DNA of 34,246 bases from Betaproteobacteria bacterium. Its GTDB lineage: Bacteria; Pseudomonadota; Gammaproteobacteria; Burkholderiales; CAIKXV01. This document shows, one piece after another, positions 9,962-14,390 of the stretch; the first letter of the stretch is position 1, and each line of letters opens with the position of its first letter. The translations under genes were made by a program, and so were the position numbers. Where the stretch lies: assembly GCA_947458835.1 (NCBI GenBank), contig CANHBC010000014.1:1-34246 (forward strand). The letters are read 5' to 3'. The notes beneath the pieces are model-generated. The model ran no database searches, was not told where the DNA came from, and saw only the letters and a program-made list of their open reading frames with translations.

Positions 9962-10289
9962 ACTGCTCGGCGGGGTACTTGAGCGCGTTCAGCCCGATCT
10001 TCTCCTCGGCCGCGGCGACGAGGTCGAACTGCAGCCGGTCGGCGAGGCGAACCAGATAGAGCAGCACGTCGGCCGATTCATGCCGGATGCGCTCCCGGTG
10101 CGCCGGTTCGGGGTGGTAGCTTTCCGGGCCCTCGATCCACAGGAATTCGGCCGCGAGTTCACCCGCCTCGGAAGCCACGCCGATCGCGAGGTTCTTGGGC
10201 GAGTGGAACTGCTCCCAGTCGCGTTCCGCGGCGAAGCGGCGAAGGCGTTCAGTGAGGCCGGCAAGGCTGTCCGGGGTCATCGCTGCCAT
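9927..10289 (-). CDS. MazG-like nucleotide pyrophosphohydrolase
   Basis: RDWEQFHSPKNLAIGVASEAGELAAEFLW...RHESADVLLYLVRLADRLQFDL: EAxE...ExAD MazG-like motif. Confidence 0.9.
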   Translation of the reverse strand: MAAMTPDSLAGLTERLRRFAAERDWEQFHSPKNLAIGVASEAGELAAEFLWIEGPESYHPEPAHRERIRHESADVLLYLVRLADRLQFDLVAAAEEKIGLNALKYPAEQFRGSSRKYSEP

Positions 10290-11129: not shown

Positions 11130-12191
11130 TCAGGCAGCCGTCGCCACCGGATAGTCTGTGTAGCCCTTTTCGCCGCCGGCATAGAACGTCGACGGGTCGG
11201 CCGCGGCCAGCGGCGTCCCTTCGCGCAGCCGCTGCGGCAGGTCAGGGTTGGCGATGAACAGCTGGCCGAACGCGACCGCATCCGCGCCACCCGAGGCGAC
11301 GATCGCTGCCGCGCTGCCGGCGTCGAATCCGGCGCCGGCGATGTAGGTGCCGGGGAAGCGCTTGCGCAGTTCGTGGTGGTACTCCGACTGGCGTGCGGCG
11401 GGTGCGACGTGCAGGTAGGCCAGCCCCAGCGGTGCGATCTGGTCGACCAGCGTCGTGCAGGTCTGCATCGGATCGTGGTCGGTGATGTCGTTGAAGGCCA
11501 TCTCCGGGGAGATCTTGATGCCGAGGCGGTCCGCACCGATGGCCGCGGCGATCGCCTGCAGCGCCTCCACCGTGAAGCGCACCCGGTTGGTCGCACTGCC
11601 GCCATAGCGGTCGGTACGCAGGTTCGTGCCGCTGGAAAGGAACTGCATCGGCAGGTAGCCCGACGCCGCGTGGAACTCGACGCCGTCGAAGCCTGCCTCG
11701 ATCGCACGTCGTGCCGCTGCTGCATAGCCCTGGATCACCGCCGCGATGCCGCCTTCGGTCAGCGCCACCGGCACCGGGTGCGGCAGCATTCCGCTGTCGG
11801 TATACACGGTGCCCTCGGCCCGCACGGCCGACGGTGCCACCGGTGTCGCGTTGCCCGGCAGCAGTGACGGATGGCTGATCCGGCCCGCGTGCATCAGCTG
11901 CGCGACGATCTCCCCGCCCGCGACGTGCACCGCGGCGGTGACCGCCTTCCATGCTTCCACGTGGACGGCGTCCGCCAGGCCGGGCGTGTGCACGTAGCCC
12001 TTGCCCATCGGCTCCGGGAAGATTCCTTCGCTGATGATCAGTCCGGCGCTGGCGCGCTGGGCGTAGTAAGTGGCGGCTATCGGCAGCGGGCGACCTGAAT
12101 CGTCGGCGCGTGCGCGGGTCATCGGCGCCATCACGACGCGGTTCCGGAGGGTGAGCCGGCCAACCTTGAGCGCATCGAACAACGTGGTCAT
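11130..12191 (-). CDS. Old Yellow Enzyme family alkene reductase (NemA-like)
   Basis: LKVGRLTLRNRVVMAPMTRARADDSGRP, AQLMHAGRISHPSLLPG, FDGVEFHAASGYLPMQFLSSGTNLRTDRYGGS. Confidence 0.93.
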   Translation of the reverse strand: MTTLFDALKVGRLTLRNRVVMAPMTRARADDSGRPLPIAATYYAQRASAGLIISEGIFPEPMGKGYVHTPGLADAVHVEAWKAVTAAVHVAGGEIVAQLMHAGRISHPSLLPGNATPVAPSAVRAEGTVYTDSGMLPHPVPVALTEGGIAAVIQGYAAAARRAIEAGFDGVEFHAASGYLPMQFLSSGTNLRTDRYGGSATNRVRFTVEALQAIAAAIGADRLGIKISPEMAFNDITDHDPMQTCTTLVDQIAPLGLAYLHVAPAARQSEYHHELRKRFPGTYIAGAGFDAGSAAAIVASGGADAVAFGQLFIANPDLPQRLREGTPLAAADPSTFYAGGEKGYTDYPVATAA

Positions 12192-12387
12192 TGAACGCTC
12201 CTGAGTGTTTGCGGGTACGGGATGGATCCAATGCTCGCGTGTATTCGCCGGCAATGAAATCGGAGAATTCGGATCGTTTCGTTCAGATTCGTTGAAAGAT
12301 TCCTGTGCTGACGCGCAGGCCTCGAACTCGAGGTCGGTGAGGCCGGAAGTAGGCGGCGGGGTGCGCGCCCGCTAGAATGCGCCCACC

Positions 12388-13653
12388 TTGGATGCTCCGA
12401 CCAGTCACGTTCCCGATGCCCCTTCACGCCTTCGCGTGAACCCGTCCGTCCCGGCGCGCGACCTGTGCACCGACTGCGGCATCTCGCGCAGCAGCGACCC
12501 GAAGCGCTGCGGCCGTGCCTGCCAGTTCATCCGCCCGGACTACCCGGCGCTCGAGACGCAGGTGCACGGGCGCAGTCGCGACCCGGCGCGGCCGGACGAA
12601 CTGCACTTCGGGCCGTTCCGGCGCATGGTCCGTGCCTCGATGAAGCAGCCATCGGCGGGTGCGCAGTGGACGGGCATCACCACCGGCATCGCCGAACGGC
12701 TGCTGGCTCGCGGGCTGGTCGACGCGGTGCTCACCATGGCGCCCGATCCGGCGGATCGCTGGCGTCCAGTGCCGGTACTGGTCACCTCGGCGGCGGACAT
12801 GGCGACCTGCCGTGGCATGCGCATGGGATACGCGCCGCTGCTCTCGTTGCTCGAGCCGGCGCTGGCCGCCGGCCACAAGCGGCTGGCGGTGGTCGGCATC
12901 CCGTGCCAGGTCTACGCACTGCGCGCGCTCGAGCAGGAACTCGGCTTCGAGCGCCTTTACGTGATCGGTACGCCCTGCTCGGACAACACCACCACCGAGA
13001 ACTTTCACGCCTTCCTCGAACTGCTGGCGGACGACCCGGCGACCATCACCTACCTCGAGTTCCGCGCCGACTACCGGGTCGAGCTGCGATTCACCGACGG
13101 GCGTACGAAGCTGATTCCCTTCCTCGACCTGCCGATCTCGAAGCTGCCGCCGGACTTCTTCCCGCTGACCTGCCGCACCTGCGTCGACTACACCAACGTG
13201 CTGGCCGACATCACCGTCGGCTACATGGGCGGGCAGGGCGAGCAGTGGCTGCTGGTGCGCAACGAGCGAGGCGAGGAACTGCTCGGGCTGCTGGGCGACG
13301 ACGTGCGCACCGCGGCTCCGGGCTCGGCCGGCAAGCGGCAGGGCCCGGTGAAGGGCTTCCTCGCCAACGTCGAGCGCGCCGCCGGGGGGCTGCCGCTGCG
13401 CCGGATGCCGGGCTGGCTGCGGCCGCTGGTGAACTTCCTGATGCCACGCATCGGTCCGCGCGGGCTGGAGTTCGCCCGCACCCGGGTCGAGATGAAGGCG
13501 CTCGAGTCGGTCGTGCACCTGCGCCGGGAGCGGCCGCGCCGCCTGCGGCACATGGTGCCGGCCCATGTCTGGGCGCTGGTGGAGGCGTACGGGTTGAAAC
13601 CGCGCGACGACGAGCGCCGCGCACCTCGGGGCGGCCCGCACCCCGAGGGCTGA
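12388..13653 (+). CDS. Coenzyme F420 hydrogenase/dehydrogenase beta-subunit family, BciB-like (putative 8-vinyl reductase) ferredoxin-dependent Fe-S flavoprotein
   Basis: CTDCG-x9-RCGRAC Fe-S motif, LHFGPFRRMVRASMKQPSAGAQWTGITTGIAERLL, VVGIPCQVYALRALEQELGFERLYVIGTPCSDNTTTENFHAFLE, CRTCVDYTNVLADITVGYMGG. These resemble cyanobacterial BciB from memory. Start uncertain: TTG at 12388 or GTG at 12436. Confidence 0.75.
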   Translation: MDAPTSHVPDAPSRLRVNPSVPARDLCTDCGISRSSDPKRCGRACQFIRPDYPALETQVHGRSRDPARPDELHFGPFRRMVRASMKQPSAGAQWTGITTGIAERLLARGLVDAVLTMAPDPADRWRPVPVLVTSAADMATCRGMRMGYAPLLSLLEPALAAGHKRLAVVGIPCQVYALRALEQELGFERLYVIGTPCSDNTTTENFHAFLELLADDPATITYLEFRADYRVELRFTDGRTKLIPFLDLPISKLPPDFFPLTCRTCVDYTNVLADITVGYMGGQGEQWLLVRNERGEELLGLLGDDVRTAAPGSAGKRQGPVKGFLANVERAAGGLPLRRMPGWLRPLVNFLMPRIGPRGLEFARTRVEMKALESVVHLRRERPRRLRHMVPAHVWALVEAYGLKPRDDERRAPRGGPHPEG

Positions 13654-13665
13654 GCGCAGGCGCGC

Positions 13666-14307
13666 TCAGGCAGCCCTGGCGAACTGCGCCATGACGTCCT
13701 TCTCGTAGGCCTCGACTTTCTGCACGCTCGGCCGGGCACGCATGCGGTCCATGTGCGCGAGGCAGTTCGGGAACGCGGACAGGTCGAGCTTGAACTGGGT
13801 CGCGCGCCGGAAGCACCAGAAGAAGTAGGTATCGACGGCTGTGAAGTGGTCGAAGAACCAGTCACGGCCCTGGAGCCGTTCCTCGGCGATCTTCAGGTCT
13901 TCGAACAGCAGTTTCTGCGCGACCCGCTTCACCCCGTCGAAGGCCTCGGGGATGTCGCAGTAGTTCTCCGGCCGTGCATTCGGCGTGAGGTGCGGATGGA
14001 TGGTCGAGGCGAACCAGGCCATCAGCGAGATCGCCTTGAACTCGTCGAAGCCTGCAGGCAGCAGGTTCGCCGCCGGGAAGCTGCGTGCGATGAACTGCTG
14101 GATCGCCACGTTCTCGGTCAGTGGGTAGCCGTCGACCAGCAGCACCGGGACCTTGCCCTTCGGGTTCATCGCGAGGTACTCGGCGCTCTTCTGCTCCCTG
14201 GCGCCGGTGTTCACCGTGCGCACCGTGAAGGGCGCACCGGCCTCGGTCAGGTTCACGTAGGCCACCAGCGAGCAGGCCATCGGGGCGTAGCAGAGCGTCA
14301 GGTCCAT
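13666..14307 (-). CDS. Glutathione S-transferase family protein
   Basis: MDLTLCYAPMACSLVAYVNLTEAGAPFTVRTVNT...NPKGKVPVLLVDGYPLTENVAIQQFIAR. Confidence 0.9.
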   Translation of the reverse strand: MDLTLCYAPMACSLVAYVNLTEAGAPFTVRTVNTGAREQKSAEYLAMNPKGKVPVLLVDGYPLTENVAIQQFIARSFPAANLLPAGFDEFKAISLMAWFASTIHPHLTPNARPENYCDIPEAFDGVKRVAQKLLFEDLKIAEERLQGRDWFFDHFTAVDTYFFWCFRRATQFKLDLSAFPNCLAHMDRMRARPSVQKVEAYEKDVMAQFARAA

Positions 14308-14390
14308 CGGTGTCTCCTCCATGTCGGGGCGTGCATCGTACCCGCACGGGCTCTCGATCGGTCAACAGCTGGCCGGGTGCGCGCGTTAGG

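Follow-up and report, generated by a model that had tools for sequence, protein, structure and literature searches.

The locus

The stretch of DNA analysed here (the window) is contig 14 of a betaproteobacterial genome and has a length of 34,246 nucleotides. It contains a gene for an Fe-S flavoprotein, flanked on the opposite strand by an Old Yellow Enzyme (OYE)-type oxidoreductase gene and a glutathione S-transferase (GST) gene (Table 1); Pfam confirmed both of these neighbours, which the first-pass annotation had already named. The reading frame of the flavoprotein begins with a TTG codon and has a third-codon-position GC content of 0.90, and the protein is single-copy in the host genome. 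In an alignment of the upstream DNA, the TTG start of close relatives is aligned with that of the window gene, as is a -10-like box. No box of the PpsR/CrtJ type (TGT-N12-ACA) is present upstream of the window gene. Such boxes were found in 11 of 79 upstream regions with ~4 expected, an excess that a -35 element could explain because several of the matches contain TTGACA.

Between positions 10195 and 15068, two GST-type genes, the OYE-type oxidoreductase gene and a ChaC-like gene surround the flavoprotein gene, giving the neighbourhood a glutathione/electrophile theme. The OYE gene also lies beside the gene in one relative's locus (L002) and was not detected near it in three others (L003-L005). 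A functional link between the flavoprotein and OYE, GST or ChaC was considered and rejected: the neighbourhood is common only to the closest relatives.

Table 1. Features of the bciB-type gene and its immediate neighbours, in window coordinates.
Feature	Position	Strand	Basis
bciB-type gene, Fe-S flavoprotein of the BciB/HCAR branch, 421 aa	12388..13653	+	Pfam, structure search, fold, tree
TAGAAT, -10-like box, 9 bp upstream of the TTG codon	12373..12378	+	aligned in close relatives; putative promoter element
N-terminal cysteines C27-x2-C30-x10-C41-x3-C45, putative proximal [4Fe-4S] ligands	12466..12522	+	conservation
Second cysteine set C173 (IPCQ), C197 (TPCSDN), C262 and C265 (CRTC), putative distal [4Fe-4S] ligands	12904..13182	+	conservation
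D199 in the invariant motif PCSDN, probably equivalent to D197 of Synechocystis BciB	12982..12984	+	motif, not alignment to the Synechocystis sequence
OYE-type FMN oxidoreductase, neighbour, outside the system	11130..12254	-	Pfam Oxidored_FMN
Glutathione S-transferase, neighbour, outside the system	13666..14322	-	Pfam GST_N

Family, fold and phylogeny

The protein matches the Pfam domains FrhB_FdhB_N (4e-22) and FrhB_FdhB_C (4e-26), both far over cut-off. These two domains are common to FrhB and FpoF, and taken by themselves they would also suit an F420-dependent enzyme of that kind. However, the NCBIfam models for FpoF and FrhB score the window protein at 61-75 bits against cut-offs of 269-475, i.e. 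far under. Among solved structures, the top match of the single sequence is Arabidopsis HCAR (5dqr; E = 2e-70, residues 20-406) with an F420-type subunit next (3e-16), and a profile of 40 relatives gives the same order (HCAR, 5e-84; F420-type subunits, 4e-21). An AlphaFold2 model of the window protein (mean pLDDT 82.9) superimposes end-to-end on 5dqr with a TM score of 0.85 and an rmsd of 2.3 Å over 397 columns, whereas F420-type proteins match over the core only (TM ≤0.58 by query length) and are 15-24% identical in structural alignments.

In a maximum-likelihood tree, in which HCAR and a BciB from Thiodictyon (Chromatiaceae) stand as proxies for the biochemically characterised Slr1923 of Synechocystis and Ctha_1208 of Chloroherpeton, the window protein, its relatives and the two proxies group together in one clade (ultrafast bootstrap support, 100%), outside which lie FrhB, the F420-dependent sulfite reductase and paralogues resembling FrhB. 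With the tree apart from FrhB and the fold much nearer to HCAR, we consider an F420-dependent enzyme extremely improbable. The assignment to the BciB/HCAR branch in the first-pass annotation was thus borne out by profile, tree and predicted fold, all of which side with HCAR rather than FrhB; the grouping with FrhB that the annotation had named as speaking against it did not occur. The sequence motifs quoted there were all recovered from the translation (the string written KQPxxGAQWTGI reads KQPSAGAQWTGI).

Judged through these proxies, the window protein is on the same branch as the ferredoxin-dependent BciB proteins, to which it is also alike in its two four-cysteine sets, its distribution among phototrophs and its complementarity to BciA. 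HCAR and the Thiodictyon protein each share only ~35-40% identity with the window branch (39% for the latter); the Thiodictyon protein itself groups with HCAR (98%).

Conserved cysteines

Eight cysteines (C27, C30, C41, C45, C173, C197, C262 and C265) are invariant in 40 aligned relatives and are putatively able to hold two [4Fe-4S] clusters. The second set is conserved in HCAR (all four residues) and in the Thiodictyon protein. The N-terminal quartet of the first-pass annotation is likewise present in the window protein, but with a spacing unlike that of HCAR. The pattern C-x2-C-x10-C-x3-C is found in 81 of the 81 proteobacterial branch sequences examined and in relatives down to 62% identity, while HCAR and the Thiodictyon protein, the two proxies used for this comparison, have C-x2-C-x2-C-x11-C. 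At the third canonical cysteine position, all window-branch proteobacterial sequences examined have a serine. Two FrhB-like proteins that are more distantly related (L132, L152) also have the C-x2-C-x2-C stretch with which the HCAR/Thiodictyon pattern starts.

The pattern suggests that one ligand of the N-terminal [4Fe-4S] cluster moved in the proteobacterial branch: counted from the first cysteine, the one at +6 would have been lost and another acquired at +14. In a model of Synechocystis BciB, the N-terminal region is the ferredoxin-docking site and D197 contacts the substrate Mg (PMC13297055). That the move accompanies a change of ferredoxin partner, or greater oxygen tolerance in aerobic phototrophs, is a tentative idea that we hold to be rather less than an even chance. 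Our literature search found no mention of the shifted N-terminal pattern, which is possibly a new detail.

A phototrophic host

The host genome, 3.76 Mb in 257 contigs, was searched for gene families, and two further contigs were inspected. Contig 45 carries pufL, pufM and bchX as well as bchC, bchY and bchZ over curated cut-offs; contig 16 carries bchL, and crtI, bchH and bchB over curated cut-offs, together with a BCHF-domain protein, a DUF3623 protein and a rubrerythrin-domain protein consistent with AcsF. The host is a phototrophic bacterium related to Burkholderiales metagenome-assembled genomes (MAGs). No photosynthesis gene was seen in the 34-kb window, a part of whose ORFs was matched to a family library. 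The gene looked out of place because the other photosynthesis genes of the host sit on other contigs. In other words, the description of the gene as lying outside any photosynthesis cluster holds for the 34-kb contig and fails for the genome as a whole. The genome-wide search for bch and puf genes that had been proposed to settle the matter found pufLM, bchXYZ, bchL and bchB elsewhere. Thus, the first of the two alternatives originally offered, a phototroph with a dispersed bciB, proved right, with pufLM and bch genes on two other contigs.

In other lineages, the gene lies among photosynthesis genes. It is ~8-16 kb from pufM in four genomes (G001, G050, G093, G244). In Polynucleobacter loci it is flanked by lhaA- and bchP-like genes, and acsF-like genes are close by; it is also near bchL, bchH, bchB and bchN in a further locus (L078), and near crtE-bchCXY in another (L069). 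The BciB-like gene on the Candidatus Thiodictyon syntrophicum plasmid pTs485 (L103:11923-13167) is separated from bchI by ~2 kb, and past bchI lie bchD and bchO. A search for further canonical BciB sequences gave this single one from plasmids and none from viral contigs. Transposase genes lie downstream of the BciB-like gene on pTs485.

Co-occurrence with reaction-centre genes

Full-length copies occur in 24 of 399 genomes from the host's order; all 24 belong to the 40 with pufLM, and the 359 non-phototrophs have none (Fisher p = 3e-28). In 387 alphaproteobacterial genomes, seven of eight carriers have pufLM (p = 2e-8). Because the members of each sample share ancestry, these p-values and the pooled one given below overstate independence and serve as guides only. 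In a third set, carriers traced from relatives' loci and including Rubrivivax, Roseococcus, Polynucleobacter, Methylobacterium and Rhodopseudomonas, 29 of 30 genomes have pufLM; a few of them also belong to the two samples above. The orthologue in Rubrivivax gelatinosus is ~78% identical.

The exceptions are G540, a near-closed alphaproteobacterial genome, and the MAG G427, in which neither pufLM nor a bchL over cut-off was detected. G540 has an intact BciB (L145:9004-10161) that is 71% identical and keeps 150 of 154 invariant residues; candidate readings of this copy are a relic, an absent photosynthesis plasmid or a non-photosynthetic use. A further trace was seen in the non-phototroph G178, where a match to the C-terminal 61 residues (C148; L148:4783-4968) must be a remnant rather than a contig-edge fragment because it lies inside a 55-kb contig. 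The genus of G178 (g28) contains BciB-bearing phototrophs, and the remnant looks as if the gene decayed once phototrophy had been lost.

The second of the original alternatives was a non-photosynthetic ferredoxin-dependent reductase of unspecified substrate. The two carriers without pufLM, G540 with its intact and well-conserved copy foremost, could be cited in its favor, as could the OYE, GST and ChaC genes that adjoin the gene in the window. By contrast, the host is phototrophic, carriers are nearly all phototrophs in three samples, and the window neighbourhood is confined to the closest relatives while the copies of other lineages lie among photosynthesis genes. The co-occurrence with pufLM disfavors a non-photosynthetic enzyme, and we regard it as very improbable.

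BciB and BciA replace each other

BciA/DVR, the NADPH-dependent 8-vinyl reductase, is an unrelated protein of the short-chain dehydrogenase type that most likely does the same job and replaces the gene across related genomes. BciA was searched for with an Arabidopsis DVR sequence rather than with a curated profile; true matches were 45-56% identical with E < 1e-48, which makes the query workable, and generic NAD-binding matches had E values of ~1e-4 to 1e-13, plus a single value of 2e-19 from a BciA-bearing genome. With this query, no BciA was found in the host genome, nor in any of the 30 carriers traced from relatives' loci. In the host's order, 14 of the 16 phototrophs without BciB have BciA, and the 24 with BciB all lack it. 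In the alphaproteobacterial sample, 12 of 19 BciB-lacking phototrophs have BciA (in pieces in one of the 12, G749), seven phototrophs have BciB, seven have neither and none has both. Pooled, the 66 phototrophs of these two samples comprise 31 with BciB, 26 with BciA, nine with neither and none with both, against an expectation of 12.2 (Fisher p = 6e-11). Within each of two genera (g16 and g28), both BciB and BciA are used, and these switches inside genera are a stronger argument than the p-values. Because each replaces the other so cleanly, BciB and BciA most likely do the same job. Having the two together is possible in principle, as in Acaryochloris (PMC4836224).

In G749, BciA residues 7-180 and 174-336 are encoded in two pieces ~2.3 kb apart with stops (C1:4891560-4894853, minus strand), and a third piece lies elsewhere; this BciA is possibly interrupted by an insertion. 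Nine genomes with pufLM have neither an intact BciA nor a BciB that we could detect (G166, G194, G504, G567, G655, G666, G710, G723 and G777), one of which (G666) keeps a short BciA-like fragment. Because nine of 66 phototrophs have neither, an 8-vinyl reductase of the BciB/BciA kind is not indispensable. These nine are candidates for 8-vinyl reduction by chlorophyllide oxidoreductase (COR) only or by an undescribed route.

A reductase of the same fold could, in principle, act on a different step of the chlorophyll pathway, as HCAR does on the 7-hydroxymethyl group, with the 8-vinyl group left to COR. HCAR is the closest solved structure. It belongs, however, to the chlorophyll b-to-a cycle of plants and acts on 7-hydroxymethyl chlorophyll, a substrate that derives from chlorophyll b and is unlikely in a purple bacterium; to our knowledge, purple bacteria do not make chlorophyll b. 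Moreover, action on another step does not explain the complementarity of BciB and BciA (31, 26 and none with both), which is what would be expected if both did the same job. That some phototrophs have neither BciA nor BciB, and that COR is able to reduce the 8-vinyl group (PMC4214422), fits a different step; all in all, we consider it unlikely, if less so than a non-photosynthetic role.

Discussion

Based on these data, we suggest that the window gene very probably encodes a BciB-type 8-vinyl reductase of bacteriochlorophyll a synthesis. The suggestion builds on the family and fold of the protein, the phototrophic host, the co-occurrence with pufLM and the replacement by BciA; for substrate, cofactors, ferredoxin and reaction, it draws on the characterised relatives. 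The second cysteine set and the PCSDN motif with D199 are kept, and we infer the electron path and reaction of those relatives. In this model, reduced ferredoxin probably gives electrons to the N-terminal [4Fe-4S] cluster, from which they would pass through the second [4Fe-4S] cluster to the flavin, and the flavin would reduce the vinyl group at C8 of 8-vinyl (proto)chlorophyllide to an ethyl group. FAD is found in BciB (PMC13297055), and this literature together with the match to the HCAR fold points to bound FAD in the window protein. The preferred substrate of BciB is 8-vinyl chlorophyllide (PMC4214422). BciB would then do the work of BciA in the host, and the host COR (BchXYZ) may be a back-up for 8-vinyl reduction, an activity that COR of the Blastochloris type lacks.

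BciB has been reported from some purple bacteria (reviewed in PMC7242693), and purple nonsulfur bacteria figure in a published study that compared the BciA tree with that of BciB (PMC4836224). Because purple-bacterial BciB has already been reported, the window gene adds to a known kind. What deserves follow-up is the either/or distribution of BciA and BciB with its switches within genera, together with the altered cysteine spacing.

With these results, an apparent orphan becomes an assigned pigment-biosynthesis gene. The shifted cysteines, at the region modelled as the ferredoxin-docking site, pose a concrete biochemical question. Across whole genomes, the distribution argues clearly that a purple bacterium has either BciA or this branch of BciB, and not both. 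The switches within genera make the reason for the choice, be it the supply of ferredoxin or NADPH, iron or oxygen, testable between close relatives.
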